This document shows positions 1,712 to 28,849 of a stretch of 34,271 bases of DNA, one piece after another. This stretch comes from a virus, in the IMG/VR virus record IMGVR_UViG_3300032093_000456, positions 1 to 34,271 of that record; one strand, written 5' to 3'. The first letter of the stretch is position 1. Each line of letters opens with the position of its first letter. The translations under genes and the position numbers were made by a program. The notes beneath the pieces are model-generated. The model made no database searches. It saw only the letters and a program-made list of their open reading frames with translations, and was not told where the DNA came from.

Positions 1712-1991
1712 AATCAAAATATCCTTTAATTTCTTTCATTAGTTTATCTACCTGTTTATTATTTACAAGGCAACTATCACAAAATTTAGAATCATTATAT
1801 ACGCTTAGCAATGTATTACATCCCCCAGCACATCTTCTTTCTTTTTTAAGCCTAGTTCTAAATTTAGACTGATGATACCTTTGTGATATCTTTTGTTTTG
1901 TTGAATTGGTTCTACAGTCGGATGAACAATAGATTTGGTTTCTAATATGAGAATCAAATTCTTTTTCACACCACTGACATACCTTTATCAT
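1698..1991 (-). CDS. Small protein with two predicted zinc-binding sites
   Basis: The 97-residue protein has eight cysteines in two sets. C5, C8, C22 and C26 resemble a treble-clef or FCS-type finger (CQWCEKEF ... YCSSDC). C54, C58, C71 and C74 form a second knuckle pair (CAGGCNT ... CDSC). A basic stretch between them (FRTRLKKERR) could contact nucleic acid. The start overlaps the stop of the Cas4-like nuclease by ATGA, so the two are probably translated together. The family recurs in phages, but I know of no assigned function. Confidence 0.75.
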   Translation of the reverse strand: MIKVCQWCEKEFDSHIRNQIYCSSDCRTNSTKQKISQRYHQSKFRTRLKKERRCAGGCNTLLSVYNDSKFCDSCLVNNKQVDKLMKEIKGYFDYEKE

Positions 1992-2767: not shown

Positions 2768-3078
2768 TAGAATGACCTTACACTATATTTAAGGGCATCA
2801 ACTAGTTTATCTATTGCTTCTCTTGCAGAGTAGTATAGATTCTTTTTTACCCTTTCATCTTTTTTAACATGCGAATACCAAGAGGCAAGCATGCCAAACT
2901 TAGCAGAATATGCTTGCAGTTGGGTAATTAGTAGCGTAGCCTTTTGTGGCGGAATATCTGGATTAGAGATTAACTTAGCAACAACTACAAGTGCATTGGT
3001 TAATTCTTCATCTTTCATGTATTCTGATATATCGTTTAATCCTGTAACCTTGTTTAATATCTCAACTGTTGTTTCCAT
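2767..3078 (-). CDS. Hypothetical helical protein in recombination module
   Basis: The protein has 103 residues, is mostly alpha-helical by composition and has no cysteines or obvious catalytic motif. It has an acidic N-terminal half (NDISEYMKDEELTNAL) and a basic helical region (WYSHVKKDERVKKNLYYSAR). It lies between the PD-(D/E)XK resolvase-like gene (overlap 17 bases) and the Cas4-like gene (TAATG overlap), so it is co-translated with them and may be a partner or adaptor. I do not recognise a family. Confidence 0.65.
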   Translation of the reverse strand: METTVEILNKVTGLNDISEYMKDEELTNALVVVAKLISNPDIPPQKATLLITQLQAYSAKFGMLASWYSHVKKDERVKKNLYYSAREAIDKLVDALKYSVRSF

Positions 3079-3364
3079 TGCTCTCTCTCAATTGCTCAAA
3101 AACTTGCCATTCTATTATAGCAAGTCTAACCTTTTTGTTTCCTTCTCCTAAAACTACCATTAATGCTGGATTCTTTTTTCTATCTACCTTCATTGTGTCA
3201 GACACAATCTTTGCCCAAGAATCTTGGCTCACAGAATATGATTTAGAATATTCTTTGACGTCTACAACAAAATCATCTAGTGATCCGTCAGCCTTAACTG
3301 GTCCTCTTCCTGAATTAATGTGTTGCTTGGCACCAATACGCTTTAGTTCTCCACGCTCACTCAT
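3062..3364 (-). CDS. PD-(D/E)XK nuclease, Holliday junction resolvase-like
   Basis: This 100-residue protein carries a short PD-(D/E)XK signature: E5 in RGELKRIG, D31 in SLDDF, then D35 and K37 in VVDVKEYSKS, followed by a helix SQDSWAKIVSDT and the strand NPALMVVLGE. This matches compact phage proteins usually annotated as Holliday junction resolvases. A RuvC-like gene is also present, so one of the two may act on other branched or recombination substrates. The start has a clear AAGGGG ribosome site, and its A is shared with the stop of the upstream zinc-ribbon gene. Confidence 0.6.
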   Translation of the reverse strand: MSERGELKRIGAKQHINSGRGPVKADGSLDDFVVDVKEYSKSYSVSQDSWAKIVSDTMKVDRKKNPALMVVLGEGNKKVRLAIIEWQVFEQLRESNGNNS

Positions 3365-3534
3365 TAATATCCCCTTACGTTAAAATTAACTTTAGATAAA
3401 TGTTTTTCTTGACACATCCAAGTTAACTCCTGTTTTTCTTTGTACATTCTTGCTGTTGCAACTATTGCTTTACATGTATGGCAAATAAACTTACCATTGT
3501 ATAAAGAATATCTATACGTTGATGGCTGATTCAA
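3364..3534 (-). CDS. Short zinc-ribbon-like protein with TTG start
   Basis: The stretch between RecA and the resolvase-like gene is fully open in one frame. It encodes 56 residues from TTG at 3534 to a TAA that overlaps the next ATG. The protein begins MNQPSTYRYSLYNGKF and contains C19-x2-C22 (ICHTCKA) plus C41-x3-H45 (WMCQEKH), a credible zinc site. An in-frame TAA lies just upstream of the TTG, which fixes the longest possible start. Overlap with the recA end is 23 bases. No strong ribosome site is visible, so translation may depend on coupling from recA. Function is unknown; the basic and aromatic composition allows nucleic-acid binding. Confidence 0.65.
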   Translation of the reverse strand: MNQPSTYRYSLYNGKFICHTCKAIVATARMYKEKQELTWMCQEKHLSKVNFNVRGY

Positions 3535-4522
3535 GTTCTTTTAGTTTCTCTGGATTTTCTTTTAGGTATTCAATTACTTTTGCTCTGCCCTGTAGTCTTT
3601 CACCCAAAACTGTATACCAAGCACCACCCTTTTCGATGATACCTAGAAGTTCTGCAGTATCTACAAGATCTGCTGTCTTATCAACACCTGTCATGCTTCC
3701 ACCAAAATAAAAGTCATATGATCCACTTAAAAATGCTGGACCAGTTTTATTAAAGTCAACGTGCCAGTTTACAACACGTCCAACCTTTTCTTCAATAAGT
3801 TTATCTCCAACCTGTATCTTTCCTTTAATTGCTTGGTTTTCTGATTCGCTAGACCACAACTTAATAACTGTGCTAGAAAAGAACTTAACTGCTTGACCAC
3901 CTGTTGGAACATGCGATGCATACATGGCACCGATATTGTTTCTTTGTTGTGAAATTAAAACTAATAATGTTTGATTTTCTTGATTGTTAGCATAGTTAAG
4001 CATCTTGACTGCATTGGTCATATCTCTTGCTTCAGCACCAATCTGCTTAGTATTTTCTAACTGCTTTAATTCAGTAGAATCTTTTTCAAAGTAAATTGCT
4101 GGAAGCAGTGCAGAGATAGAGTCTACAATTAATACATCTACTTTTGCTTTCATTAATTGTGTAGCAACATCGACCATATCATTAATAGTTCTTGCTTCTG
4201 AATAGATTAATTTATCTGTATCTACCCCTAGTTTTGTAGCCCACTCTGGATCAAATGATTGCTCAGCGTCAATCCAAGCACACACCTTACCTTCTTTTTG
4301 TGCTTCACCAATCATCTGTAAACAGAATGATGATTTACCTGCTGATTTATTTCCCCAAATTAATATCTGTCTACCATAACCAACTCCACCCTTTAGTGCA
4401 TTATTAAGACTGATGCTGGGTGTTTTTTGTTTTTTAACTTCTACTTCTGTAGCATTGCTTACTCTTTTTCTTAATTCAGGATCTAACTGAGATAAGAAGT
4501 CTTCTATTTCTATTGTTTTCAT
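3512..4522 (-). CDS. recA: RecA-like recombinase
   Basis: This protein catalyses ATP-dependent homologous pairing and strand exchange. Visible motifs are the Walker A loop at residues 57-64 (GNKSAGKS), the glutamate in DAEQSFDPEWA, Walker B ending at D134 (VDVLIVDS) and the L2-region signature SQQRNNIGA at 191-199, followed by PTGGQAVKF. Length (336) is close to bacterial RecA, and the layout follows bacterial RecA rather than T4 UvsX. It lies 12 bases after the polymerase gene and upstream of two resolvase candidates and a Cas4-like nuclease, so it is probably the core of the phage recombination module. The ATG at 4522 has only a weak AGG upstream, and coupling to the polymerase gene is likely. 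Confidence 0.95.
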   Translation of the reverse strand: MKTIEIEDFLSQLDPELRKRVSNATEVEVKKQKTPSISLNNALKGGVGYGRQILIWGNKSAGKSSFCLQMIGEAQKEGKVCAWIDAEQSFDPEWATKLGVDTDKLIYSEARTINDMVDVATQLMKAKVDVLIVDSISALLPAIYFEKDSTELKQLENTKQIGAEARDMTNAVKMLNYANNQENQTLLVLISQQRNNIGAMYASHVPTGGQAVKFFSSTVIKLWSSESENQAIKGKIQVGDKLIEEKVGRVVNWHVDFNKTGPAFLSGSYDFYFGGSMTGVDKTADLVDTAELLGIIEKGGAWYTVLGERLQGRAKVIEYLKENPEKLKELESAINV

Positions 4523-4534
4523 ATACCTATCTTT

Positions 4535-7500
4535 CTAGTTTGCCATTACTTCTCGTAATATTTCTGTTCCATCTTTTGATGTTTCAAAGGTCATTTTCTT
4601 AGCCTTGCCTGGCTCACACTTCATAAAGCCTTCTGAATATTTTGTAGGAAATATAACAATAGATTTCATGTCTCTACTTGTATCTGCAACGATCATATTG
4701 GCCATCTTTTTTCCTGCTTTTGTTGTTCTTGACTTAAATGATACCACATAGTACTCTTCTCCGCTATATGGTAAAGTTTTATAGTTTAAGAATTTAATTA
4801 ATGGATTAGATAGCGAATCTTTTATATCATCTATTGTTACTGCTTCCATAATTCTATTATTAGCAACAGCAATAATATAAGTTTTTCCCGCTTCAATCTT
4901 TGTTTCTTCGTCATCAAATACTCCAAGAAGACCAGTTGAATCCATAATTTCTACACGAGACCAGCCCTTACCTCTTTTAATATTTTTAATAACACCCATC
5001 AATATATACACACCAGTTTCTTCAAAGTCTTCTATCTCGTCTATATAAGCATAGTAGTGTTGTGGTACTGTTGTTTTAAATTCGGGAAGGTTTAAATACT
5101 CGTATAAACTTTCTCTTATCTTTTTTTCATCTCTAGGATTATCCGTAAAGGTTAATGCACCTACAGCATCAAGTGCTGCTAGTGATCTTGAATTAACCCC
5201 ACTTCCTTTTGTAAATACAAAATCATAAAATTCTTGATATGAATTAAATGGTCTTCTTGCCATAATCTTAGAAGATATATTGTCTGATATCCATTTGATA
5301 GCAGATAATCCTATTCTTATTCCATTACCCTCGATCTTAAAATCACTATCTGACTCATTAATGTGGGGTAGTTTTAAGGCTATGCCCATTCTTTTTGCTT
5401 CAATCAAGTATTCTGTTCTAGCATCTTTATCTTGTTCATTCTTTAATAATGAATACATAAACTCGATGCCATAATAATATTTTAACCATGCTGTCCAATA
5501 TGAAAGCATTGAGTATGCAACAGCATGAGACTTATTAAATGAGTACCCTGCGTGAGCCTCAAAATCATGCCATAGTCCCTCTGCTTTGAATGGAGTAATA
5601 TGTTTTGATGCACCAGTCACAAACTTGTCTTTAAATTCGTCAAATTCTTTTGCATCCTTTTTCTTACCAATAATTTTACGAACCTTGTCTGCTTCGGCCA
5701 TACTCATTCCACCCAAGCCAACACATGCCTGCATAACTTGTTCTTGGTATAAAACACATCCATAAGTATCTTTAGTAAACTTTTGCATAATAGGATGTAT
5801 ATGCTCAGTTATTTCTCTACCATGTTTTCTAGCAAGATATGACTTACCAATTGTATTCATAGCACCTGGTCTTACAAGAGCATTGGAGGCTGCAAGTTCA
5901 TCTAAGTTACTTACACCCATCTTTACCAACAAGTTTGTGTATGGTGTTGCTTCACACTGAAACACTCCTTTAGTTCTTCCATCTGAAAGCATCTCATACA
6001 CTTTTGGATCATCTAAAGGTATTTCTTTTAACTTAATATTAATCTTATGTCTTTTCTTAATTATTTTTAAGGTATCATCAATAACAGTTAAGGTTTTTAA
6101 TCCAAGAACATCTAGTTTGATCAATCCAATATCTGCTGCCTCTTCCATATCAACTGCTACTACTGGAATTCTTTCCTTGCTTCCTGGGGCTGATCTTGTT
6201 TCTAATGGTGCATACTTAAAGATTGGTTCTTTTGCTGTTACAACACCAGCAGCGTGAATACCAGTACCACGAATACGACCACGAAGTTGTTCACCGTATC
6301 TGACTACGTCTGGATATTTTAATCTAAACCACTGTGCATTTTTGCTTGTAATAAAATCGTCCCAGTCGTCTACTGTTTTTAAAACTTTATTTACTTCTGA
6401 TAGTGGTATATTAAATGCTCTAGAAACATCTCTTACAATACCCTTACCTTTAAACATTAAGAATGTTGCAATGGACGCTACGTTTTTATACTGTGATTCA
6501 AGATAAGACTTAACTTCATCTCTTCTACTATCTGCGATGTCCGAATCAATATCTGGAAAGTCATTACGTTCTGGATTGATAAATCTAAAAAATAGCAATC
6601 CATACTCTAATGGGTCAACATCTGTGATTCCAAGTACGTAACAAATTAATGATCCCGCTGCAGAACCTCGACCAGGTCCAACCAAGATTCCTTGTTCCTT
6701 AGCCCAGTTAAGCATATTAGATACAATTAAAAAGTATGAAGAAAAGTTTTTATCTCTAATAATATCTAACTCTTCTTGCATTCTTTCTCTATATTCTGGC
6801 TTATTATATAATCCTTTTTGTTCCATACCTTTTAATACTAGGTCAACTAAACCTTGATGTGGATCATCAATTTTTGCAGGTAGTAAGTCTAAGCCGCTAA
6901 CAATCTCATATTCTTCTACTTTGTTTGCAATTTCAATAGTGTTAGTATAAATGTCTTCTCTTTTTATACCTTGCATACTCATTGCTTGCTTCATTTCTTC
7001 ATATGAAAGTAAGTGAATATCAAATGATCTAAATGACATAAATCTATCTTCACCGTATAGGTAATCAAGACGCTTCATAACATCATCTATCTTTTGAGAC
7101 TTTTCAAACTTAGCATCTTTAGTTAATTTTGCATGTGTATTTAAAAGAAGCATAATTTCTTGAATAACCTTTTGATCTGTGCTGGCGTGGTGGCAATCAG
7201 GTGTTACTACTGATTTAATATCCATACTATCAGCCAAAGCAAGTAATTCATTGTTAAGTTCTTTTGAGTTATGTGGCATCACTTCAACATAAAAATCATC
7301 TTTAAATGTATCCTTAAACCATTTCAAAAGTCTTTTTGCTTCTGCATACTCATTGAACTCTAAAGCCTTAGCAATGAGGCCAGACATACATGCTGATAAA
7401 ACTATTAATCCATCTTTATATTTTTCTAATAATTCAAAATCTATTCTAGGCTTGCTGTAGTATCCCTCTGTCCAAGCCAGTTCATTCAATCTATTTAAAT

Positions 7501-7816
7501 TTTCTAAGCCCTGTTGATTCTTTGCAAGTATAACTATATGATTATAAATTAAATCTAGGGGATTTCCAAGTCTTTCTTTCTTATCTCTTTTATCAAATCT
7601 ATCATGAGTAATATAACCTTCTATACCAAGAATTGGTTTTATACCCTCCGCCTTTGCTGCACGATACATTGGTCTGTGACCAGATAATGCACCATGATCA
7701 GTAATGGCTATGGCTTGCATGCCTATATTTTTTGCACGCTTGCAGTACTCTTCTGGAGTTGCAACACCATCCATTAATGAATAGTGTGTATGCACGTGTA
7801 AAGGAACGTAGTTCAA
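4535..7816 (-). CDS. dnaE: DNA polymerase III alpha subunit (DnaE-type replicative polymerase)
   Basis: This 1093-residue family C polymerase synthesises the phage genome. An N-terminal PHP domain (about 1-215) keeps its metal-binding positions: H7/H9/H11 in LHVHTHYS, TDHG at 39-42, SACMSG and TPDCHH at 205-210. The palm shows GPGRGSAAGS at 380-389, the catalytic aspartates of PDIDSD (D422, D424) and the third aspartate D569 in IKLDVLGLKT. Helix-hairpin-helix and OB-fold regions follow, the latter at about 955-1020. I see no epsilon-type exonuclease gene, so the PHP domain may do the proofreading. The start is TTG with AAAGG 7 bases upstream; the nearby ATG is out of frame and ends after two codons. 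No clear QxxLF clamp-binding peptide was found. Confidence 0.95.
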   Translation of the reverse strand: MNYVPLHVHTHYSLMDGVATPEEYCKRAKNIGMQAIAITDHGALSGHRPMYRAAKAEGIKPILGIEGYITHDRFDKRDKKERLGNPLDLIYNHIVILAKNQQGLENLNRLNELAWTEGYYSKPRIDFELLEKYKDGLIVLSACMSGLIAKALEFNEYAEAKRLLKWFKDTFKDDFYVEVMPHNSKELNNELLALADSMDIKSVVTPDCHHASTDQKVIQEIMLLLNTHAKLTKDAKFEKSQKIDDVMKRLDYLYGEDRFMSFRSFDIHLLSYEEMKQAMSMQGIKREDIYTNTIEIANKVEEYEIVSGLDLLPAKIDDPHQGLVDLVLKGMEQKGLYNKPEYRERMQEELDIIRDKNFSSYFLIVSNMLNWAKEQGILVGPGRGSAAGSLICYVLGITDVDPLEYGLLFFRFINPERNDFPDIDSDIADSRRDEVKSYLESQYKNVASIATFLMFKGKGIVRDVSRAFNIPLSEVNKVLKTVDDWDDFITSKNAQWFRLKYPDVVRYGEQLRGRIRGTGIHAAGVVTAKEPIFKYAPLETRSAPGSKERIPVVAVDMEEAADIGLIKLDVLGLKTLTVIDDTLKIIKKRHKINIKLKEIPLDDPKVYEMLSDGRTKGVFQCEATPYTNLLVKMGVSNLDELAASNALVRPGAMNTIGKSYLARKHGREITEHIHPIMQKFTKDTYGCVLYQEQVMQACVGLGGMSMAEADKVRKIIGKKKDAKEFDEFKDKFVTGASKHITPFKAEGLWHDFEAHAGYSFNKSHAVAYSMLSYWTAWLKYYYGIEFMYSLLKNEQDKDARTEYLIEAKRMGIALKLPHINESDSDFKIEGNGIRIGLSAIKWISDNISSKIMARRPFNSYQEFYDFVFTKGSGVNSRSLAALDAVGALTFTDNPRDEKKIRESLYEYLNLPEFKTTVPQHYYAYIDEIEDFEETGVYILMGVIKNIKRGKGWSRVEIMDSTGLLGVFDDEETKIEAGKTYIIAVANNRIMEAVTIDDIKDSLSNPLIKFLNYKTLPYSGEEYYVVSFKSRTTKAGKKMANMIVADTSRDMKSIVIFPTKYSEGFMKCEPGKAKKMTFETSKDGTEILREVMAN

Positions 7817-7834
7817 ACCATAGCCTTTCTGATA

Positions 7835-8485
7835 TTACCAGTCGACCGATGTTGATGTTGCTTGATTGCTGAATCCAATATAAAAATTTTCTTGTTCAGC
7901 ATAAGGAACTTCTCTAACAACTCTTTCAAGGTTAGGAAATTCAAATGATCCCCAGTTAAATGGTTCAGCATCTTGTTTCATTGGAAGTAGAACATAATTT
8001 GTTTCTGTTCCCTTTCCATTTCTTTTTAGTTTCCAAACCATATTTGAAATACTTGTTGAGTCTGCAGCATATTCTCTAATTGTATTGAATGTTGCAGTTT
8101 TGCTTACACCCATACTCCAAACTGCTACATGTGGTGCATCGATTCCATTGTCAACTAAAACGTTGCAATAAAATCTTAAACGTGCTCTCCAACCACTCTT
8201 TGGTTCTTTGCGAAACATTTCACAACCAAAACAACGACCTTGAGTATCTGCAGTACAAACTGCTTTTCTTTTATAGTCATCTGGATTTGAATGTTCACTT
8301 ACAACAATAGCAAGACCACGCTTTTCATCATAGTGAGGTGAGTCTGCATCTAATTCGCTAACGAATCTTATTTGAGCACTTTGCCCATCATCTAACTTAA
8401 GCCACGTTACCTTTTCGCCTGAAATGTTTAATTTAGGCTTATCAATAACGGCCTCAATGTTTTTTAGACCTTTTATAATTGACAT
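7835..8485 (-). CDS. Putative single-stranded DNA-binding protein, gp32-like zinc motif
   Basis: The 216-residue protein contains H65, C77, C85 and C88, spaced H-x11-C-x7-C-x2-C. This is close to the H-x12-C-x9-C-x2-C zinc site of T4 gp32. It is followed by an aromatic and basic strand (WRARLRFYCNVLV) of the type that contacts ssDNA. The position between primase and polymerase genes fits a replisome ssDNA-binding protein. The C-terminus ends SVDW and lacks the acidic tail of SSB or gp32, which is unusual. The start has AAGGAGAA upstream and a probable promoter at 8518-8526. No other SSB candidate is present in the window. Confidence 0.7.
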   Translation of the reverse strand: MSIIKGLKNIEAVIDKPKLNISGEKVTWLKLDDGQSAQIRFVSELDADSPHYDEKRGLAIVVSEHSNPDDYKRKAVCTADTQGRCFGCEMFRKEPKSGWRARLRFYCNVLVDNGIDAPHVAVWSMGVSKTATFNTIREYAADSTSISNMVWKLKRNGKGTETNYVLLPMKQDAEPFNWGSFEFPNLERVVREVPYAEQENFYIGFSNQATSTSVDW

Positions 8486-8517
8486 ATTTCTCCTTAGTAT
8501 TTACTCTGTATATGAGC

Positions 8518-8526
8518 GTTATATCA
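8518..8526 (-). promoter_or_regulatory. Extended -10 promoter before ssDNA-binding protein gene
   Basis: TGA-TATAAC; the TGA is also the primase stop codon. The mRNA leader would be about 26 bases and include AAGGAGAA. A -35 match is not visible at proper spacing. Confidence 0.5.
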
Positions 8527-9477
8527 TTGTAGCATAGAAGACACTATGTCGTCAAATTTATCTACAAACTTTTTTAAGTCATTGTCTGATAAATCGGACA
8601 CATCTTTTATGCCTTCTGGTAAAGATGGTGCTATGCATCCACTTCCAAAATAACTTATCATTTTTTTAGACATGTTTTTGCCAGCCTCATCATTATCACC
8701 CAAGACAACAACTTGATTAAAGTATTGCTTAAGTAATTTTCTTTGTTCTTTTGATATAGTTGCACCAAGAGTTGCTACTGCATGAACACCTACTTGTTCA
8801 AGTCTAATGGCATCAAATGATGACTCTACAACAAAAACTTTATCGTATCTTTTTGCTCTTTGCAAATTAAACAAGGTTTTGCTTTTAGGTAATCCAGGAG
8901 TATTTTTAAACACCTTACCCTCTATGGATCTACCAACAAATCCTAAACATAAACCTTCTGGAGAATATACTGGAATAGTTACCATGTCTTGCTTTTCGGA
9001 GTATCCAAGTTTATATTTGATAACACTATCTTTATATATGTTTCTATTTTTATAGTAAGACATAGCCTTTGAACTTTCAAATACATTTTTATGCAATCTT
9101 TCTATAACTTCTAAATCATATTCTTGAAAATCTATTTTTTTATCTAATGTTTCTTGTAGTGCTTCAACTAAGTTTTTATTATCAGACTTAGAATCTATAA
9201 GCCTTGCTGCTTCAAAGTATGATCTTCCAGAAGCCTGCATAACTACTTCTGTTAACTCTTTCGTTTCTTGACAAGCAAAACAATAAAACATACCATTTGT
9301 TTTGTGAACTTCTGCAGCGGGTGTTCTTGAGTTATTATGAAATGGGCAAAATATAATAAAGTCTATATCTACTTCTGATACTATATCTATGCCAGAGGCT
9401 AGGAGACTTCTTCTGATTTGATTTTCTGTATAATAGTTGATCGTATTGTCGTATTCTTGTCTATTCCTAGTATGCAT
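8524..9477 (-). CDS. dnaG-like: DnaG-type primase
   Basis: This primase makes RNA primers for lagging-strand synthesis. A CHC2-type zinc finger is formed by C44, H47, C66 and C69 (CPFHNN ... FYCFAC). The Toprim catalytic core shows E218 in VFVVESSFDA and D261/D263 in VLGDNDEAG. At 317 residues it is shorter than bacterial DnaG (around 600) and ends soon after Toprim, so the helicase-binding C-terminal domain is missing. The ATG at 9477 overlaps the upstream gene by 79 bases. No downstream ATG, GTG or TTG occurs before the zinc finger region, so the overlap appears real. The TGA stop is also part of the extended -10 box of the next gene's promoter. Confidence 0.9.
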   Translation of the reverse strand: MHTRNRQEYDNTINYYTENQIRRSLLASGIDIVSEVDIDFIIFCPFHNNSRTPAAEVHKTNGMFYCFACQETKELTEVVMQASGRSYFEAARLIDSKSDNKNLVEALQETLDKKIDFQEYDLEVIERLHKNVFESSKAMSYYKNRNIYKDSVIKYKLGYSEKQDMVTIPVYSPEGLCLGFVGRSIEGKVFKNTPGLPKSKTLFNLQRAKRYDKVFVVESSFDAIRLEQVGVHAVATLGATISKEQRKLLKQYFNQVVVLGDNDEAGKNMSKKMISYFGSGCIAPSLPEGIKDVSDLSDNDLKKFVDKFDDIVSSMLQ

Positions 9478-9713
9478 TTTGCATTCTCTTTTCCAACATA
9501 TACTCCGTAAACTGATAACTTAAAATCAAATGTCTTTCCATTATAACTTACTGTAAAGTCTGTGTCAATATCGTATCTAGGAACATAGCCTTTATTCCTC
9601 ATTCCACTTATGACCATGAATATGTATTGGTCTTTTAATCTTGATATAAAAGACTCATCAAAGATTTCACCCTCTAGGCAAAATCGATGAATCTTTTTAT
9701 GGCTATATGACAT
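9399..9713 (-). CDS. Hypothetical protein, probably leaderless mRNA
   Basis: The protein has 104 residues and a mixed alpha/beta composition. A distinctive core is RNKGYVPRYDIDTDF followed by KTFDFKLSVYGVYVG. I recognise this only as a conserved phage hypothetical next to primase and helicase genes. No ribosome binding site precedes the ATG at 9713. Instead TGATATAAT ends 6 bases before the ATG, which would place transcription start on the A of ATG. It lies between helicase and primase genes, suggesting a replication-related role. Confidence 0.7.
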   Translation of the reverse strand: MSYSHKKIHRFCLEGEIFDESFISRLKDQYIFMVISGMRNKGYVPRYDIDTDFTVSYNGKTFDFKLSVYGVYVGKENAKCILGIDKNTTIRSTIIQKIKSEEVS

Positions 9714-9719
9714 ACCATA

Positions 9720-9728
9720 ATTATATCA
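9720..9728 (-). promoter_or_regulatory. Extended -10 promoter giving a leaderless mRNA
   Basis: TGA-TATAAT (9728-9720) is a full consensus extended -10. Exactly 6 bases separate it from the ATG at 9713, so the start site should be the A of ATG. It lies in the 22-base gap after the helicase gene, and no ribosome site is present. Confidence 0.65.
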
Positions 9729-9735
9729 ACGATAT

Positions 9736-10974
9736 TTAAGAGGATGGCTCATTATCTTTATACATAAATCTTCCAGAGTCAAAGTCTATATCAATCATAA
9801 ACTCTCCACAAAAGCCATGTCTATTCTTTCTAAAAACACACTCTAATATGCTACTACCTTGTGCTCTACCTAATGCTAATACCCAATCAGCATCGTAAGC
9901 CAACTGCCTTGACCAAGCAACCTGACCTAGTGATGGGACGGTGAACATATCTGTGGCATCATCTGGGGTAGCAGAAGCAATAGCAACAATAGGAACCTGT
10001 TCACTAATTGCTAATATTTTTAATTCTCTAGATATATTTTTAATCTTTACTACTTCATTATCAGTATAATTGTTTGACTGCATTAATTGAATATAATCAA
10101 CAAAGACTATATCAGGAGAGTATTGATCTATCTTACCCCTCAAAACTGATGGAGAAACCTCTCCAAGCCCATCGTTAGAAACAATGTGAAACGATGGCTT
10201 ATTATCTAAATGTGTTTTACTCCAATTTCTAAAAGAGTCTGTATCTAAAACACCAGAACTTAATTTTCTATGAGACCACATTCCTTGTCCCATAATTGTA
10301 TAAGCACGATTACGAACTTCTGACTCTGTCATTTCTAATGAGATGAATAGCGGCTTTCTTCCGTTTTTCCATGCTTGAACAGCCATAAATAACGCGAGCC
10401 AAGACTTACCAATAGCAGGATAGGCAAGAAGAATGCCAAACTGACCAGGAGTAATACCCGCTGGAAGATAGTTATCAAAACCTGCAAGACCTGTTTGTAT
10501 ACCATGAATACCCTTTTCGTGTAATTCTTTTATTCTATCAAAATGTGCAATAGCATCTTCTACGTCTACTGCATCTATATCTCTTATCTCTGCAGTTATT
10601 CTTTTTAGATCGGAGGTTTTAGAAATAATGCTGTTTAATGCATCTACTGGCTCATTAGTTTTTAATTTATTAGCAGTATCCATTAAGATACTACTTAGAC
10701 TATTTTGTAGGTGACTTACCCTAAGTTCTTCAAGGTGATGCTTTGTGCTACCTATCTCACCTTGTGGATCAAAGTCTCTAAACTTTTCTACCACCAAATT
10801 AATTGACGGAACTACAGAGTTTTGTTCTTGATAGTTCCTAACAAATTCCCAAACATCTTTGTGTGTTTTAAACAAAGAGTCTGGATTAGATTGTAATAGT
10901 ATGTGTATCTGTTTATCTTTTAATACCGCAGAAAGTACTTTTCCTTCTAGGTCTGCTGACACTACTTTAACCAA
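9736..10974 (-). CDS. dnaB-like: DnaB-type replicative helicase
   Basis: This RecA-fold hexameric helicase unwinds DNA at the fork. Walker A is AYPAIGKS at residues 184-191, the catalytic glutamate is E214 in FISLEMTE, and Walker B is DIVFVDYIQLM with D293. A late RKNRHG is consistent with the arginine-finger region. The N-terminal helical domain (1-100) is reduced but recognisable (SADLEGKVLSAVLKDKQ). The longest start is a TTG at 10974. A GTG at 10962 forms a TAGTG overlap with the upstream gene and would give 408 residues; this stop-start style is common here and may be the true start. No separate loader is certain, although the upstream gene is a candidate. Confidence 0.93.
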   Translation of the reverse strand: MVKVVSADLEGKVLSAVLKDKQIHILLQSNPDSLFKTHKDVWEFVRNYQEQNSVVPSINLVVEKFRDFDPQGEIGSTKHHLEELRVSHLQNSLSSILMDTANKLKTNEPVDALNSIISKTSDLKRITAEIRDIDAVDVEDAIAHFDRIKELHEKGIHGIQTGLAGFDNYLPAGITPGQFGILLAYPAIGKSWLALFMAVQAWKNGRKPLFISLEMTESEVRNRAYTIMGQGMWSHRKLSSGVLDTDSFRNWSKTHLDNKPSFHIVSNDGLGEVSPSVLRGKIDQYSPDIVFVDYIQLMQSNNYTDNEVVKIKNISRELKILAISEQVPIVAIASATPDDATDMFTVPSLGQVAWSRQLAYDADWVLALGRAQGSSILECVFRKNRHGFCGEFMIDIDFDSGRFMYKDNEPSS

Positions 10975-21425: not shown

Positions 21426-22009
21426 TATACTTCCTCAACTGATACCGATATGTTCCAAAAATCATGTGTAGTAAATCCTCTTTTAACTACTGAGTAATCA
21501 AAGTCAGAGAAATATACTTCTAGAACTTCATTATATTGTTGTAAGTGTGCATATGGTGCTGTATCAAATTTATCATATCTATCATAAGCCAAAAGCATAA
21601 AGAAAGATCCTTGATGTGCCTCGTACCACTTTACTAGATCAACTCCACCTGCACCGCCATCTGCTGTATATTCTTCTGCAGAATATGTTTGTATTCCACT
21701 AGAGTCAAACCCTGGATCTCCACTAAATGCTCTAGAAGGAAGCATTTCCCAAGACCAAGAAACATTTGTTTTGTCTGCAATATGATAAGAACGCATTGTT
21801 CCAGATATCATTCTTTGTTTATTTTCTATTCTTTGTTTAGTAAAATTAATCTCACTTCTATTATGGTCTGATAGTATTAAAAAGTCTTCACCTTCGGTAT
21901 TGCCATCTGGTATAAATAATCCTCCACTAAGGGTATATGAGTCTGCCCATGCAATTGCTTGTGGTCTGGTATATGCAAATCTATTTTGAATATATGTTGA
22001 ATTAACCAT
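21425..22009 (-). CDS. Minor tail protein in the distal-tail (Dit) position
   Basis: The 194-residue protein is coded immediately after the tape measure gene (TAATG), where siphoviruses encode the distal tail or first minor tail protein. It is beta-rich with aromatic motifs (WADSYTLSGGLFIPD, NVSWSWEMLPSRAF, GFTTHDFWNISVSVEEV). The closing strand, typical of tail-tube-fold proteins, suggests it caps the tube and binds the tip protein. No enzymatic motif is visible. The Dit assignment is positional. Confidence 0.7.
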   Translation of the reverse strand: MVNSTYIQNRFAYTRPQAIAWADSYTLSGGLFIPDGNTEGEDFLILSDHNRSEINFTKQRIENKQRMISGTMRSYHIADKTNVSWSWEMLPSRAFSGDPGFDSSGIQTYSAEEYTADGGAGGVDLVKWYEAHQGSFFMLLAYDRYDKFDTAPYAHLQQYNEVLEVYFSDFDYSVVKRGFTTHDFWNISVSVEEV

Positions 22010-25000
22010 TAAAGTCTATTGCTCCTTAAGTTTGTATCTGTCATTCTTCTAAGTTTTCCAACTACAACATTTGCTATTTCTTCTGGTGAGGCATCTGTGT
22101 TTGGAACATTAACGTTTACATTATAAGTATACACTGGAGTGTTATTTATTGTTGATGTTGTTGGTGCTACTGATCCTAACTCTACTGATGAGCCAGTTCC
22201 CTTTATTGATGGAAATACGTCTCCATTAAGTGCTTTAAGCATATCCATGTTTTCTGCAGCAACTGATTTTCTAACTACAAATTCTCCTGGTGTAAGAAGT
22301 GCTGGAACTCTATCTGTATTTCCTAAGCCTGGAACTATGTTACCAACAGCATACTTCTTCATCTTTCCACCCATGGCCATGCCTGGTGCTGGTTCATTAG
22401 ATGTATACTTTAGGAAACCTCCAAATGCTTTTTTAATAACTCCACCAGCGTTGGCTGCTGTTGGGTCATATTTTCTATTCGCTGCTTGATTTATATATTT
22501 AGCAATATCTTTATAGTAGCCCACTAATCTTCCAACTCTTGCTTCTTCCTCTATTTGTCGGGCTCTAATTCTTAGTTGAGTTGCTTCTATCTGTCTTGCA
22601 ATAACTTCTCTTTGTGACTCTAAGTTTTTAATTTGATCTTGTAGTGGCCATGTTTGAAGATCTCTTTCATACATTCTTTGGTTTATTGAATCAATTTGTG
22701 ACTCTATCTGTTGTCTTGTTAAGAGTTGTCCATTTACTGATGTTGTTAATGCATCAATTTCTCTTTGTCTTTGTAGTTCTAGTTCTGCTTGAGTATTGTC
22801 TATTTGACCTTGAGCAAAGTCTTCTGTCATTGTCAAAGCAGCCTGTGCTGCAGCAGCGATATCTCCACTAGTTAAGGCACTGGCTAAATCAAGTCTATTT
22901 TTTTCTTGTTGTGCTACTTGAGCATTTGCTTCTTTTACTCTATTCAAAGCATCAATTCTTGCATTATAAGATTTATTTACATTTTCTTCTTTCTTAGACA
23001 GATCTTCTAATGCTTTGTTTCTAACAGTAAGTTGTCTTTGATCAGCATCATTTAATTTATTGATAGCATCTATTTGATCTTGTACCGCTTCTATGTTAGC
23101 GTCAATAGCATCTGTTTGTGCTTCTAAAATATCTACTTGTCTTTCGTCTTCACCTTTAACTATATTTTGTAAAACTCTTTGAGCGGCTGCTTGTTGATTT
23201 ACTGCTTTTACCAAGTCTAGTCTTTTCTTTTTAACTAATTCAATTGCAGTGGCAGCATCTAGATTTGCGGCTGCTTCTGGTGACAATCCTCTTTTTACTA
23301 ACACGCTAAGTGCTGCTGAATACTCTTTTGTTTGCTTAATTGATTCTTCTAATATTTGAATCTTAGACTTTTCTCCACCTGATCCTGGTGGATCTTCTTC
23401 TTGAAAGGTTACTGGTGGCTTTACTCCATCAGGTGCACGAGATGTAACTTGAGGTGTAATATAATTTCTAAATGCATTTGCTGCTTCTATCAATCCTTTG
23501 TCAGTAAGTGCTTTAACTATTTTATCAACTAGATCTTTATCTATATTTCCAGTTGTTAGTTGATTGAAATATTCTGTTGCCTTTAAGACATCTCCATCTG
23601 CTAGTCCAGTAAATACAGCATCAACAATGCTTGACTCAAATCCTTGACCAACTCCAACTAGTGACTGTTCTGCTGCTTTTCTTTGATCATCAAAAAACTT
23701 TACAACAGCCTTTGATTCTTGAGTTCTTAAGTTACCAAACTTATTTCTATCATAAAGATTTTTTAACTCAGCATCTGTTTTACCTAAATACTGTGCAAAA
23801 GAGTCTATTGCTTTAGTGGTATTTTTATTTATTAAATCTGTTTGTTGTTTAATTCCTTCTTGATACTTAGTAAAACTTATTTCTCCATCTTCATACTGGG
23901 TTGTCAGTACATCCATAGAGGCTGCTATATTTTCATTTGCACCCTTTAGTATTTCATTGATGTTGTTTGCCACATTTTCTCTTACTTGGTTTTCTTCAAT
24001 ACCAAATAGTTTAGATATAAAGTTGCCTTCTTCTACTTGTTGCTGTGCTAAAGTAATTATGTCAGACAGATTAAACTTAGGAGATATTTCAGCAGCAATC
24101 TGTAAAATGTTATTTTCTAATAATTCTCCATTAGGTCCAAATAGTTTTGATATTTTTCCAACTGCATCTATCGCTAAACTCTGATCATTTAATGCTAAAC
24201 CAATATCTTTTGCAATAGCCTCTGCTTCATCTGGCGTAATTGCTCCAGCAACAACTGCTTTCGAAACTTGATTTCTGATTGCTAGAGCAGCGTCTCCACC
24301 TGCTGCTCTTACCTTTTCAATGTCTGCCAATAGTTTCTTTCCTGCATCACTTTGTATATATTGTGTTGAGAATTGTTGTGCTTCAGCACTAATTCCTCCA
24401 CCTGCTCTACTTGCTCTTGTTTCTGCTAATCTTTGTCTAGTTGTAGTTCTTCCAAAAGATTCAGCCATTGCTTCAATATTTTCTGTAGATCCATACATTG
24501 CTCTTGTCATAGCAGCACCAGCATCTGCTACCTTCTTTAATTCTTTATTTACAACAATGCTTAACAATCCAGAAGTTGCCATAAATGCTGTAATTACTAA
24601 ACCTACTGGATTTGTAAGGAATGGTAATCTTGTTGCTAATACTCTTAATACTGGTCCTAAAACTTGGAATGCACTAGCGGCAATAGAGGCACCTGTTACA
24701 ACTTTTCCAATTGCACTAACTGCTTGGTTAGAACTTGACTGTAATGCTGGACCAGCCAAAAAGCCTGTAAAAGCAGCACCACCGATTCCTCCACCAACAC
24801 GAGATCCAATTGCCGCCATCCTTGCTTGGCCAACTGTTCTTCCAGTAATATTTTGATATCTTTGGTTTCTTTCTTTTCTTGTTCCTTGTTGAAAATTCTT
24901 TACTTTACCAGCATTTAATGCGTCTAAGAATGGTCTATTTCTTGCTGCTGCATCTTTGTTGACAACAAATTCTCCTGGAGTTAATAGTGCTGCTTGAGTC

Positions 25001-28000
25001 CCACTACTATTTATATCTCCACCTTTATTTTTTGTTACCAATATGTTTCTTAGTCCTGATAATGCTGCAGGTATGTTTGCTCCACCAGTGTAACTTGCTC
25101 CAACAATACTTCCATCTCTTCCTATAAAGTTTACTTTTCCTGATTTATTTCTATAAACACCAATACTTCCTTTTGGTAGGTTTTTGATAAATTGAGACTT
25201 TTGATCTTTTGTTATATCTCCTGCTAATTTTTTACCTTTATTTAAAACAACAAGACCTTTTGCTCTAAGGTTTGTTATTGTTCTAGGGCTTTCAATGTCA
25301 GTTGGTTTTGATATTCCTATCTTATTATAAATTTCTTTTGTATCTGCTCTCCACTGCATTGGTCTCTTTAATAAAGAATATGTTTCAGGATATAATTTTT
25401 TAATTGCCCTTTGATAGATTGGGCCTACATGCTTATCAAATAGTAATTCATCGCCTCGACCAGTCTTTACCATTAATTCTAGTTTTCTTACCATTGCTGC
25501 TTGAACTCTATCAGAACCCGTTCCTCTACCAGTTTTACCTAGCACTTGATCTAGTGGACCAAAGGTTTGACCTGCTGGAGTATTTCTTAAATATGACAAC
25601 AGATCAGATGCTTTTACTCCACTTCCAACACTGTTTCTTAATGCTTGATTAATTGATCTAGGTAAAAATGCTGTAAATCCTTCTTGTTGTGTTGCAAATT
25701 TGCCAACCTTATTAAATATTTTTTCTTGGCCTCCAGTGAGTCCAGATGGTTTAACAAAATCTCCTCCAGATCCTAAGTGTGTAAGTTCAAGTGGTGGTCC
25801 AAACATTCTTGCTTGAGATGGCGATAACTTTCCTGGTCTAACTCCAATACCACTTCTTTCTACGGCTTCTTGTGCTAATATATCTAGATTTCTTTTATTT
25901 TCTATTACATCTCCGCCACCAAAGTATCCAGCAACTCCACCCATATTTAATCTTTCTAAGAACTTTGTACCAATGCTTCTAGTTGCATCTTTTGTTACAA
26001 CAAATTCTCCTGGTGTCAACATTGCTGGAACTGTATCTTGATTACCAGTTCCTGGAACTTGACCACCTGTAGCAAATCTTCTTGGGAAAGCACCTTTAAT
26101 ATTTCTTGATCTTGCTTGTGCTGTTTGTAATGCAGTTCCTGGTGCAGCAAATGTAAATTTAGATAAGGATGCTGCTTCGGCCATTCTGTTTATTAAATAT
26201 GAATATGTATCGCCTAAGTTTCTAACTGCTGCCCTTGCACCCTCTGCGGCAGAAACTTGAGCACGGAAAGCATCGTTTGCAGACATGGTTGCTGAACCCA
26301 ACTGTTTTGCTGCAATTGCGGCGTCTATCTCTTCAAGAGACATATACTTCATGGATTGAGTTACTGCTTGAATTCCGCCTACAACCCCACCCTTCATTAA
26401 TCCTTTAGAAAATATTCCAAGAGATTGTAATAATTTAGCAAGAGTTCCACTTAGGTTCATTAATAAACCAAAAAACATTGTTCCAGCAGGTATAACTAAG
26501 CCAGTAATAATAGTTGCTAGTGCTATAAATTTCTTTGAAAAGTCAGGAAGATTATTAAATCCTTCTACTATCTTAGTTAAGAAATTAACAACAGGAATAG
26601 CAAGTTGAACAAATAATTGACCTATAGGAGCAATTGCTAATTTAAATTTTTCAATAGCCGCGGTTAATTGCACACCAAATGATTGCTCAATAACAGACAA
26701 CTCTCTCTCAGCAGTTTGTCTTAACTGTTCAGAGGAGAATGCCATAGTGTCTATAACTTGACTTGCCTGTGATCCATCTCTAACTATATTCTCAAATAGT
26801 GCACCTAGACGAGCGTATTGGAACTTACCAAATACTTGCTCTAATGCTTGTTGTCTAGAGAATTCATCTAAAGTTTGAAGTGCTGTTGCGAAATCCATTA
26901 CAGTGCCCATTAAATCTCCACGATTTCTTTGGACAATTGCATCTAGATTAATGTTAAATCCAGCAAGCATTTCTTTTGCTTGTTTTGTTGGGTTAATTAA
27001 AGATCCAAGACCTGACTTTAGTGCGTTTGCACCCTGCTCTGCGGATACTCCACCTTCCTGCATTGCTGCAAGAAATACAGCCATATCTTTTACGTCTCCA
27101 CCTAAACCTTTAATAACTGGTGCCACACGTGGAATTGCTGCTGCTAAATCTTGTAAACTTACTACAGTTTGGTTTTCAACCATGTTTAAGAAGTTAACTG
27201 TATCTGCTAACTCTTGTCCACTAAGTCTAAATGCTGACTGCAAAGCAATTGTTGTATCAAGTGCTTGATTTTGATCCATTTGACCAAGTGTTGATAACCT
27301 AGTTGCTTGAGTTACTGCGTCTGTTAAATCTTTATTTCTACGACCTGCTGCTGCAGCCTGAGCAGCCAAGCCAACTGTATCTTTAACTGCAATTCCATAT
27401 TTTGTATATTCTTTACCCAAAGCCATAACAGCATCCATATTGCCTTGTAATTCTGCAGGTGTGGTAAAGATGTCTCCATAAACTTTTTTAAATGCTACTG
27501 CTTGTCTTTCTAGTTCCATGAATGTTTTGCCAGCAGTTGATCCAAATACTGTCAACGGTAGTGTAAAACCAACCATCAACTGACGACCAGCCCACTGAAC
27601 ATTCTTACCAAAGTTAATTAATTGTGTTGTTCCTTGCTTAAACATCGAAGTAAGAATTTGAGATCTTTGTGTAGCAATAGCCATCTCGGAACTAAATGCT
27701 GCTAGAGGTCTGATAGCAAGAGCCTCTTGCATGCCTCTTGATGCACCAGTTGTGGCTATAAATTGAGTTTGTAATGTTCTTGAACGCTCTGCGGCAAGAC
27801 CCATTGTTTCAGCAAATAAAGCACTGTTTCTATTAAATTTAGCATTAAAAAATTGACCTAGAGTTGCTTGACCTTTTCTTAGGGTAGCATCTAATGCACC
27901 AGCAGATGTTTTCATCTTTACGGTTTCAGCAGTAAAGAATCTGCTTGCATTAACTAAGTCTTGTAATTCAGTAGTATATTTAGCAGTGGCACTACTTTGA

Positions 28001-28125
28001 AATTTATTATTTTTATTTACCGCAATTGTAAATGCGTTTATTTGTTGTTGTAAAGCCTTTAATTGGGCAGCGGCATTACCCGTATTGATCTCAATATCAA
28101 TAATACCCTTGGCTACATCAGCCAC
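22009..28125 (-). CDS. Tape measure protein
   Basis: This 2038-residue protein sets tail length. By the usual rule of about 0.15 nm per residue it predicts a tail near 300 nm. The region about 190-500 matches the TP901-type core (KDTVGLAAQAAAAGRR, LNMVENQTVVSLQDLAAAIP, GGVSAEQGANALKSGL). Hydrophobic segments lie near 525-570 and 1150-1185. Long coiled coils occupy about 1640-1870. Three copies of a module ending LTPGEFVV sit near 705, 1050 and 1945. The start is GTG with a GAGGTGA ribosome site, and its G is shared with the stop of the chaperone frameshift product. No lytic enzyme domain was recognised. Confidence 0.95.
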   Translation of the reverse strand: MADVAKGIIDIEINTGNAAAQLKALQQQINAFTIAVNKNNKFQSSATAKYTTELQDLVNASRFFTAETVKMKTSAGALDATLRKGQATLGQFFNAKFNRNSALFAETMGLAAERSRTLQTQFIATTGASRGMQEALAIRPLAAFSSEMAIATQRSQILTSMFKQGTTQLINFGKNVQWAGRQLMVGFTLPLTVFGSTAGKTFMELERQAVAFKKVYGDIFTTPAELQGNMDAVMALGKEYTKYGIAVKDTVGLAAQAAAAGRRNKDLTDAVTQATRLSTLGQMDQNQALDTTIALQSAFRLSGQELADTVNFLNMVENQTVVSLQDLAAAIPRVAPVIKGLGGDVKDMAVFLAAMQEGGVSAEQGANALKSGLGSLINPTKQAKEMLAGFNINLDAIVQRNRGDLMGTVMDFATALQTLDEFSRQQALEQVFGKFQYARLGALFENIVRDGSQASQVIDTMAFSSEQLRQTAERELSVIEQSFGVQLTAAIEKFKLAIAPIGQLFVQLAIPVVNFLTKIVEGFNNLPDFSKKFIALATIITGLVIPAGTMFFGLLMNLSGTLAKLLQSLGIFSKGLMKGGVVGGIQAVTQSMKYMSLEEIDAAIAAKQLGSATMSANDAFRAQVSAAEGARAAVRNLGDTYSYLINRMAEAASLSKFTFAAPGTALQTAQARSRNIKGAFPRRFATGGQVPGTGNQDTVPAMLTPGEFVVTKDATRSIGTKFLERLNMGGVAGYFGGGDVIENKRNLDILAQEAVERSGIGVRPGKLSPSQARMFGPPLELTHLGSGGDFVKPSGLTGGQEKIFNKVGKFATQQEGFTAFLPRSINQALRNSVGSGVKASDLLSYLRNTPAGQTFGPLDQVLGKTGRGTGSDRVQAAMVRKLELMVKTGRGDELLFDKHVGPIYQRAIKKLYPETYSLLKRPMQWRADTKEIYNKIGISKPTDIESPRTITNLRAKGLVVLNKGKKLAGDITKDQKSQFIKNLPKGSIGVYRNKSGKVNFIGRDGSIVGASYTGGANIPAALSGLRNILVTKNKGGDINSSGTQAALLTPGEFVVNKDAAARNRPFLDALNAGKVKNFQQGTRKERNQRYQNITGRTVGQARMAAIGSRVGGGIGGAAFTGFLAGPALQSSSNQAVSAIGKVVTGASIAASAFQVLGPVLRVLATRLPFLTNPVGLVITAFMATSGLLSIVVNKELKKVADAGAAMTRAMYGSTENIEAMAESFGRTTTRQRLAETRASRAGGGISAEAQQFSTQYIQSDAGKKLLADIEKVRAAGGDAALAIRNQVSKAVVAGAITPDEAEAIAKDIGLALNDQSLAIDAVGKISKLFGPNGELLENNILQIAAEISPKFNLSDIITLAQQQVEEGNFISKLFGIEENQVRENVANNINEILKGANENIAASMDVLTTQYEDGEISFTKYQEGIKQQTDLINKNTTKAIDSFAQYLGKTDAELKNLYDRNKFGNLRTQESKAVVKFFDDQRKAAEQSLVGVGQGFESSIVDAVFTGLADGDVLKATEYFNQLTTGNIDKDLVDKIVKALTDKGLIEAANAFRNYITPQVTSRAPDGVKPPVTFQEEDPPGSGGEKSKIQILEESIKQTKEYSAALSVLVKRGLSPEAAANLDAATAIELVKKKRLDLVKAVNQQAAAQRVLQNIVKGEDERQVDILEAQTDAIDANIEAVQDQIDAINKLNDADQRQLTVRNKALEDLSKKEENVNKSYNARIDALNRVKEANAQVAQQEKNRLDLASALTSGDIAAAAQAALTMTEDFAQGQIDNTQAELELQRQREIDALTTSVNGQLLTRQQIESQIDSINQRMYERDLQTWPLQDQIKNLESQREVIARQIEATQLRIRARQIEEEARVGRLVGYYKDIAKYINQAANRKYDPTAANAGGVIKKAFGGFLKYTSNEPAPGMAMGGKMKKYAVGNIVPGLGNTDRVPALLTPGEFVVRKSVAAENMDMLKALNGDVFPSIKGTGSSVELGSVAPTTSTINNTPVYTYNVNVNVPNTDASPEEIANVVVGKLRRMTDTNLRSNRL
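22271..26025 (-). repeat. Three LTPGEFVV modules in tape measure protein
   Basis: Copies are coded at about 25996-26025, 24961-24990 and 22271-22305, each preceded within 25 residues by a GG-containing segment, and two by VPG-x-G-N-x-D-x-VPA. After the motif comes a lysine- or arginine-rich start of a helix (VTKDATRS, VNKDAAAR, VRKSVAAE). Spacing is about 345 and 895 residues, so these are dispersed modules and not a tandem array. Confidence 0.9.
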
Positions 28126-28795
28126 TAACTAATCACCTCGTAATCTAACCCATGACCAATCCCAAAGCCTTTTTGCTTTGCAGCAACACCTTGCAGTGCC
28201 ACTATGTCATTAGGGTTAGAGGTTTTTCCATTGCTGAAAACCCTTGCCTTTAGTGCTTCCCAAGCATCGTGAGACGACTTAGAATTTTTATCTAAATCTA
28301 TTCCTTTTAGTGAAGCAAGGAACTTTTTGTTTTCATATTCTTCTTCTCTTTTAGTAGTTAGTATTTCTACTAATTCAGGTAGAGATAAAGAATTCTCCAG
28401 TTCCTCGTAATTCTTCCAAAGTCCTAGAAGAAATACTTTAGATTCTATCTCGGCGAGATCTAGTTCTGACCAACTAGAGCCGCCGCTAGTGCGTTTGGGT
28501 CGTTCAACTTAATTCCTGCAGCCACTTCAATTACTTTATAAACTGTTGGTAAATCAATAAGTTCTTCTAATTTTGCTTTATCTGCTATTTCAGGCTTGTA
28601 TTGCTTCATAGCAATTGCAGCACAACTTAAAAGCAAATCCATTGATTTAATATTGTCTTCAGCAATTGACGTGTCTGATATTTTTTGAAACTCTTTCATA
28701 AAATCTCTCAATAGAGAAATTTTTAAAGGTTTCATTGTTACTTTCGTACCGTCTTGTAATTCAACTTCTACAATTTCATAGACACTTGTTGCCAT
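28125..28795 (-). CDS. Tail assembly chaperone, long -1 frameshift product (G-T)
   Basis: The ribosome reads 101 codons of the short chaperone, slips back one base on CCCAAAC at 28499-28493, and continues for 122 codons to TAG at 28127-28125, giving 223 residues. The -1 frame is open throughout and reads RTSGGSSWSELDLAEIESKV, then FLLGLWKNYEELENSLSLP and KREEEYENKKFLASLKG. This is the typical T-domain pattern (LDLA-x-x-E ... FLLG-x-W-K-N ... R-x-x-x-Y-x-x-K-K-F-L). The long form binds the tape measure protein while the G part recruits tail tube subunits. The downstream part has no start codon of its own, which supports frameshifting. Its stop overlaps the tape measure start. Confidence 0.92.
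28451..28485 (-). promoter_or_regulatory. Predicted frameshift-stimulating stem-loop
   Basis: Seven bases after the heptamer, a two-part stem can form: outer CGGCG (28485-28481) with CGCCG (28455-28451), inner TCTAGTT (28478-28472) with AACTAGA (28465-28459), loop GGTCAG. The spacer length is in the usual range for -1 frameshifting. The zero-frame stop codon lies inside the structure. Confidence 0.65.
28460..28795 (-). CDS. Tail assembly chaperone, short product (G)
   Basis: The 111-residue acidic helical protein lies between the major tail protein and tape measure genes, the standard place for the lambda gpG-like chaperone. It begins MATSVYEIVEVELQDGTKVT and ends LAAALVGQN at a TAG. An AAGGAGGA ribosome site lies just upstream, and a promoter and terminator pair precedes it. 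The short form should be in excess over the frameshifted form, since frameshifting is usually a minority event. Its last ten codons after the slip site are replaced in the long form. Confidence 0.88.
   Translation of the reverse strand: MATSVYEIVEVELQDGTKVTMKPLKISLLRDFMKEFQKISDTSIAEDNIKSMDLLLSCAAIAMKQYKPEIADKAKLEELIDLPTVYKVIEVAAGIKLNDPNALAAALVGQN
28493..28499 (-). promoter_or_regulatory. -1 ribosomal frameshift slippery heptamer
   Basis: The minus strand reads C CCA AAC in the phase of the short chaperone, an exact X-XXY-YYZ heptamer. After slipping, the -1 frame is open for 122 codons to 28125. It lies ten codons before the zero-frame stop. Confidence 0.92.
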
Positions 28796-28820
28796 TTATC
28801 CTCCTTAAGGACATAGTAAA

Positions 28821-28849
28821 ATTATAGCACAAAACCCACCTCTCGACAA
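28821..28849 (-). promoter_or_regulatory. Promoter overlapping the tail protein terminator
   Basis: The -35 box TTGTCG (28849-28844) lies in the terminator loop and first stem base. A 17-base spacer follows, then TATAAT (28826-28821) preceded by TGC, an extended -10. It would restart transcription for the tail chaperone gene with its AAGGAGGA ribosome site. Confidence 0.6.

Follow-up and report, generated by a model that had tools for sequence, protein, structure and literature searches.

A predicted −1 ribosomal frameshift in a phage tail assembly chaperone gene, and related loci that carry two genes instead

The chaperone gene of the window and its overlapping frame

How a coding segment without a useful start codon of its own comes to be translated is the question raised by a short locus that lies between the genes for a major tail protein and a tape measure protein. 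The window, by which we mean the whole stretch of DNA analyzed, comprises a single virus record (34,271 bases, 34.8% G+C), and the features described here lie on its minus strand. The zero-frame tail assembly chaperone, G, is encoded at 28460..28795 (ATG at 28795, TAG at 28462-28460) and has 111 AA. Upstream of it, the gene at 28882..29565 matches phrog_2175 at E 1e-30, a family labeled as protein with Ig domain, and the equivalent position is annotated as major tail protein in Kenrey, Wakanda, Starbow, and Sham. The downstream neighbor at 22009..28125, with a GTG start, matches tape measure families. G and T thus lie between the major tail protein and tape measure genes, an order that is repeated in the annotated relatives. 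Elsewhere on the same strand, positions 1988-10974 hold a replication module with a DNA polymerase, a primase, a DnaB-like helicase, a single-strand binding protein, a UvsX-like recombinase and a Cas4-type exonuclease; no tRNA genes were found in the window.

A sequence-only reading of this DNA had claimed an exact, in-phase C-CCA-AAC heptamer in the chaperone gene without stating the strand. We confirmed it at 28493..28499, where CCA begins a codon and the heptamer has the X-XXY-YYZ phase; CCCAAAC occurs on the minus strand only here (28499-28493). The −1 frame is open from 28508 and, from the slip codon CGC at 28493, the T segment continues for 122 codons (28125..28493, stop at 28127-28125), which gives a GT fusion of 223 AA, as had been read. 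Its sole ATG, GTG or TTG codons are the GTGs at 28202 and 28136, neither of which is a useful start, and the segment is absent from the list of window ORFs of at least 80 AA; the earlier claims that T has no start of its own and that a simple ORF scan would miss it were both borne out. The N-terminal T motif is conserved (alignment A4). In-phase X-XXY-YYZ heptamers were counted at 65 of the 10,908 codons of the whole window and at 26 of 9,970 codons in the remainder of the G genes, and the chance of finding one in a 15-codon overlap is about 4–9%. A single site is not proof, and it is conservation in the relatives that carries the case.

A spacer of 7 nt (28486..28492) separates the heptamer from a two-part stem at 28451..28485. 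Its outer part has 5 bp (28485-28481 with 28455-28451) and its inner part 7 bp (28478-28472 with 28465-28459) around a loop of 6 nt, and the zero-frame TAG lies inside the 3′ inner arm. The stem had been described beforehand in just this way, 7 bases on and enclosing the stop. Folding of the site had been proposed as a check; the fold of the single sequence (−18.5 kcal/mol, z −1.72, with 16 of 200 shuffles equally good) is weak on its own.

Taken together, heptamer, frame, missing start, spacer, stem, gene position and the two-piece CDS annotated in relatives support the earlier reading, and it is very probable that this one gene yields two tail assembly chaperones by programmed −1 ribosomal frameshifting. 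We infer from these elements the slippage, its efficiency, the help given by the stem and the roles of the two products. Most ribosomes would stop at 28460 and release G. A minority, held by the stem, would slip back one base, the Pro and Asn tRNAs would re-pair on CCC and AAA, and GT would be made. By analogy with phage lambda, the coat around the tape measure protein would consist of many copies of G and few of GT, whose T part would recruit the major tail protein.

The T stop and the tape measure GTG start overlap by one base (28125-28127), and frameshifted ribosomes may be coupled to tape measure translation through this overlap. Before G lies a Shine-Dalgarno sequence, AAGGAGG (28800..28806), with identical letters in the related locus L007 (duplex −10.8 kcal/mol). 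A promoter-like site at 28821..28849 has TATAAT at 28826-28821 with a TG ahead, 25 nt from the G start; it is a consensus match only (the scan of the stretch found 2 against 1.0 expected), and the TATAAT box is present in L007 as well. The terminator scan found no terminator-like hairpin in the window.

G matches phrog_10504 (E 6e-28) and T matches phrog_10474 (E 6e-16). Both families are listed as of unknown function, and from these matches they look like two halves of one chaperone. Pfam gave no family for G or T at the cut-off; one match of T below threshold (12.5 bits vs. a cut-off of 25) was taken as chance. The structure model of G has a pLDDT of 68, that of T is poor (58). In the BFVD search with the G model the first match was unnamed and the second was named tail assembly chaperone (E 9e-7, TM 0.73/0.78). 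The HK97 chaperone 2ob9 aligned with the G model over 86 residues (Z 4.6, rmsd 5.6) and ranked second of the 28 chains with Z ≥ 2, a likeness that is only suggestive. Foldseek returned nothing from the PDB at E ≤ 0.001, and the sequence search of solved structures gave no match for G; a weak match of T to RTF1 (E 0.037) in that search is probably due to chance.

In phage lambda, gpG and gpGT are reportedly made by a −1 frameshift (Levin et al. 1993; Xu et al. 2004, 2013). The window shares with lambda the place of the G ORF ahead of the tape measure gene, a T that is read in the −1 frame and a slip site near the end of G; it differs in its heptamer, CCCAAAC where lambda has GGGAAAG, and in the downstream stem of its clade. 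No similarity to lambda genes showed in tblastn with G. The lambda-type G/GT system is described in Atkins et al. 2016 (PMC5009743), and the window's site is an ordinary one that adds a well-supported case to the known list. The interest lies mostly in the relatives.

Conservation of the slip site and of the downstream stem

In all, 336 relative loci were examined besides the window, repeats included. Each viral scan took in the best 80 of up to about 590 relatives, contigs recur between scans, and the query rankings are biased, one set towards uninterrupted ORFs and another towards window-like G, so the totals below are not frequencies in nature. Among the loci with the closest G (best 80 of up to ~590, identity 77–100%), all 80 have CCCAAAC in phase. 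They represent 38 distinct site segments; in every case the distance from heptamer to stop is 30 nt and there is a single G, and T follows in the −1 frame in 79 of 80, the contig of the remaining one (L148) ending before T. An alignment-based scan (best 80 loci, some of them repeats) gave 53 two-frame loci, 24 loci with a fused GT gene and a separate G gene (GT-G), and 3 cut by contig ends; the heptamer is in phase in 53/53 of the two-frame loci.

Two-frame loci make up 152 of the 336 among the matches listed, 106 of them distinct. The slip site of these 106 is CCCAAAC in 75, GGGAAAC in 12, CCCAAAT in 11 and CCCGGAA in 8; 98 of them have an in-phase X-XXY-YYZ in the short G/T overlap. In 103 of the 106 the site starts no more than 12 nt from the last −1-frame stop, so that little else could serve. 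At least 16 loci (L296-L299, L301, L302, L304-L308, L313, L314, L316, L320, and L323) have GGGAAAC at nearly the same place, with the amino acids changed and the pattern kept, and they are not a single clade in the tree of major tail proteins. That the letters change while X-XXY-YYZ stays is strong evidence that the pattern itself is selected.

CCCGGAA stands at the expected place in L166:1501-2162, L167, L168, L170, L172, L173, and L255-L257, which are Streptomyces phages of subfamily Boydwoodruffvirinae, IMG/VR copies of these, and L257. It does not itself fit X-XXY-YYZ, and no canonical heptamer was found in the overlap of these loci; it may be a non-canonical slip site. Despite its CCCGGAA, Yaboi has a chaperone CDS annotated in two pieces.

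Constraint at the site was also seen in sequences picked by G similarity alone. In 58 such distinct sequences (L124 and L148, being cut, were dropped), codons 98-100 (GAC CCA AAC) are invariant, the mean third-position diversity in codons 0-92 is 0.41, and no other run of three codons before the site has unvaried third positions. In 63 distinct CCCAAAC sequences, diversity lies mainly at the third positions of G before the site and mainly at those of T after the G stop, and between the two it is low in both frames: the overlap is double coding. The invariance of the heptamer in this second set was dropped as evidence, the sequences having been chosen for CCCAAAC.

More distant relatives came from a protein search of 50,697 phage records, in which 127 had homologous G and T, all of them Streptomyces phages; tblastn with G matched Streptomyces phage records only, and a pattern scan of genome contigs gave 58 pattern matches and no relative. 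Thirteen of the 127 were inspected, 11 with Stanwilliamsviridae taxonomy and 2 unverified records without a family. A two-piece chaperone CDS is annotated in Kenrey, Yaboi, and Sham (the join position is not given there), two separate genes are annotated in BillNye, Comrade, Paradiddles, Wakanda, Starbow, and Samisti12, and four records are without annotation. The Stanwilliamsviridae chaperones of Kenrey, Yaboi, and Sham have homologous G and T in the gene order of the window, but members of the family differ from it by an identity under 60% and by CCCAAAT or CCCGGAA at the equivalent place. A long branch separates the Streptomyces rows from the others in the tree of major tail proteins.

For L003, L004, L167, L169, L170, and L172 the public records give T a start codon and a gene entry of its own under the label 'hypothetical protein', by which the fusion is missed. 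The six Streptomyces records annotated with two genes are what speaks for T being a separate gene read from an internal start, with no frameshift. We consider this very improbable: the −1 frame of the window has no ATG, GTG or TTG before 28202 while the N-terminal T motif is conserved, 98 of the 106 distinct two-frame relatives listed keep a canonical slip site, and GT is one ORF in other relatives. RNA polymerase slippage, as distinct from ribosome slippage, would also need a slippery run, a requirement common to both kinds. Yet CCCAAAC and GGGAAAC contain no homopolymer longer than three, and the property conserved is the X-XXY-YYZ phase relative to codons, so an origin of GT in transcription is just as improbable. 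Least credible, with next to no probability, is a single GT ORF split by gene decay or by the sequencing error that the sequence-only reading had raised against itself: relatives do have a continuous GT ORF, but the 80 closest-G loci share heptamer, phase and stop across their 38 distinct segments, T is in the −1 frame in all 79 that reach it, and no second G is present in the 147 two-frame loci that continue for 450 nt or more beyond T, unlike the continuous-GT loci.

As a part of the predicted frameshift signal, the stem was compared with homologous stretches of fused GT genes that do not shift, the same T region being placed by one shared anchor, a tryptophan (20 fused loci, 1 CCCGGAA and 1 GGGAAAC locus without the anchor motif were excluded). 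Of the 36 distinct CCCAAAC sequences, 29 fold with z < −1.5 (median −2.1) vs. 2 of 74 fused genes (median 0.04). By the same anchored test the proportions are 0/7 for the Streptomyces CCCAAAT type (median +0.81), which thus has no stem by z-score, unlike the window's clade, and 5/7 for CCCGGAA, 4/9 for GGGAAAC and 1/3 for other CCCAAAT sequences. The minor types are sensitive to the choice of stretch: with a slightly different one the proportions were 0/8 for CCCGGAA and 3/10 for GGGAAAC. For two Streptomyces CCCAAAT members, L002 and L003, folding predicts longer pairings.

Over 32 distinct sequences of the window's clade, the proportion of cells that pair is 92.4%. An outer pair is G-C in some and A-U in 12 of the 32 and is broken in none, and in 15 the outer pair beside the junction does not form. 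Of the inner pairs, five are invariant and the other two are broken in 2 and 8 sequences; L152 and L161 have lost two inner pairs. The stem exceeds all 500 shuffles by paired cells and by covariation score, and 1 of the 12 pairs covaries, a number that 406 of the 500 shuffles reach. From these comparisons the stem looks like a stimulator in the window's clade, one that the system does not always include.

Relatives with a fused gene and a separate G gene

Among the matches listed, an uninterrupted GT gene is accompanied by a separate G gene in 175 of the 336 loci, 109 of them distinct, as at L010:2001-3056 and the 174 others. The continuous GT has 225–241 AA, and the separate G lies 38–69 nt downstream in 169 of the 175. 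Wider gaps with extra DNA occur in L176, L177, and L179 (781 nt) and in L252 and L253 (172 nt). At L216:1600-1640 the frame of the fused GT is broken at what looks like a short local repeat, which may be an artefact of assembly. Where GT stands alone (L051, L073) or one G stands alone (six loci), the contig ends. No locus among the matches listed has a frameshift together with a second G, and 147 of the 152 two-frame loci (102 of 106 distinct) extend at least 450 nt past T, where a second G would sit. The window itself has one G and a split T, and not the short-plus-fused pair. Homologues that do not have the heptamer, foreseen as a finding against the earlier reading, do exist, but they encode uninterrupted GT and a separate G and so leave the frameshift reading standing.

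In the loci of one scan, similarity to the window's G is about 51–62% for the stand-alone G vs. about 36–51% for the G half of the fusion. The tail of the stand-alone G is still similar to the one that the frameshifting G has in its zero frame (KLNDANALLNTV in L018 vs. KLNDPNALAAAL), and a D-x-N-like motif remains in 50 of 88 distinct stand-alone G proteins.

The starts of the two genes differ. In 32 of 36 representatives a −10 hexamer ends 5–9 nt before the ATG of the fused GT, most often at 6 nt (200 dinucleotide shuffles: mean 1.2, largest 5). From a hexamer so placed, transcription would begin at the ATG or close to it, and a Shine-Dalgarno sequence of −7 kcal/mol or better was found at 0 of those 32 starts. 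The stand-alone G has a −10 at 18–36 nt in 34 of 36 and at 5–9 nt in none, with a Shine-Dalgarno sequence of −7 kcal/mol or better in 29 of 36. Between the two genes, G has the stronger Shine-Dalgarno sequence in 45 of 47 representatives from one set and in 35 of 36 from another. The frameshifting G has its −10 at 18–36 nt in 24 of 24 uncultured and 7 of 8 Streptomyces-type sequences and at 5–9 nt in 0/24 and 0/8, and its Shine-Dalgarno sequence reaches −7 kcal/mol in 13/24 and 4/8. At major tail protein starts, 0/36 and 0/32 have a −10 at 5–9 nt. We infer from the spacing that the GT mRNA of GT-G phages is leaderless. A general −35/−10 scan of L013 gave 5 promoter-like sites where shuffles lead one to expect 4.0. 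Neither the GT start nor the G start was among them, which counts against the promoter reading; a terminator-like hairpin lies before GT in the same locus. A further idea, that the weak Shine-Dalgarno sequence before GT means low translation, was dropped, as most of these starts look leaderless and need not be weak.

A short chaperone gene together with a fused long one is reported for T4-like phages (Vladimirov, Gautam and Davidson 2022, cited in PMC10885494). As far as that citation goes, the pair works like that of the GT-G relatives, with two genes instead of a frameshift. The window is without such a pair; here both solutions occur among related phages. In the open-licence papers covered, no description was found of a switch between frameshift and duplication in this group or of a leaderless GT, and as the search was limited to such papers, this is weak evidence of novelty.

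Direction of a probable switch and what the two solutions may mean

In the free major tail protein tree the window's clade falls inside the GT-G phages, and in the free G tree its G is joined with the stand-alone G (95*). Both placements would suggest a regained frameshift, but AU tests do not reject the opposite order. GT-G as one clade has p 0.567 and 0.456, and all frameshift rows on one side p 0.581 (L059 and L017, on long branches, were omitted from these runs). For fused and stand-alone G as one clade p is 0.721 and for fused G with the G of the window's clade 0.764 (nine fused-G rows omitted from both), and for fused T as one clade 0.796. The major tail protein is absent from the stretch in 21 of 250 loci. 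The simplest order is frameshift first, then one switch; the trees do not prove this order and are also compatible with a later return to frameshifting in the window's clade.

We consider it likely that recoding and gene duplication are interchangeable and mutually exclusive in this group, and that in the lineage without the frameshift a leaderless GT has its own promoter, G has a separate promoter and a Shine-Dalgarno sequence, and the ratio of the two, formerly a matter of slippage, is set by initiation. Relatives with and without recoding form a natural experiment on why phages keep the frameshift, and they bear as well on the ratio of G to GT that tails need and on other ways to set it. 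That some relatives seem to use two genes makes the need for both versions testable, and a leaderless GT, if true, would offer a concrete explanation of how phages that do not frameshift keep the short and the long chaperone in balance.
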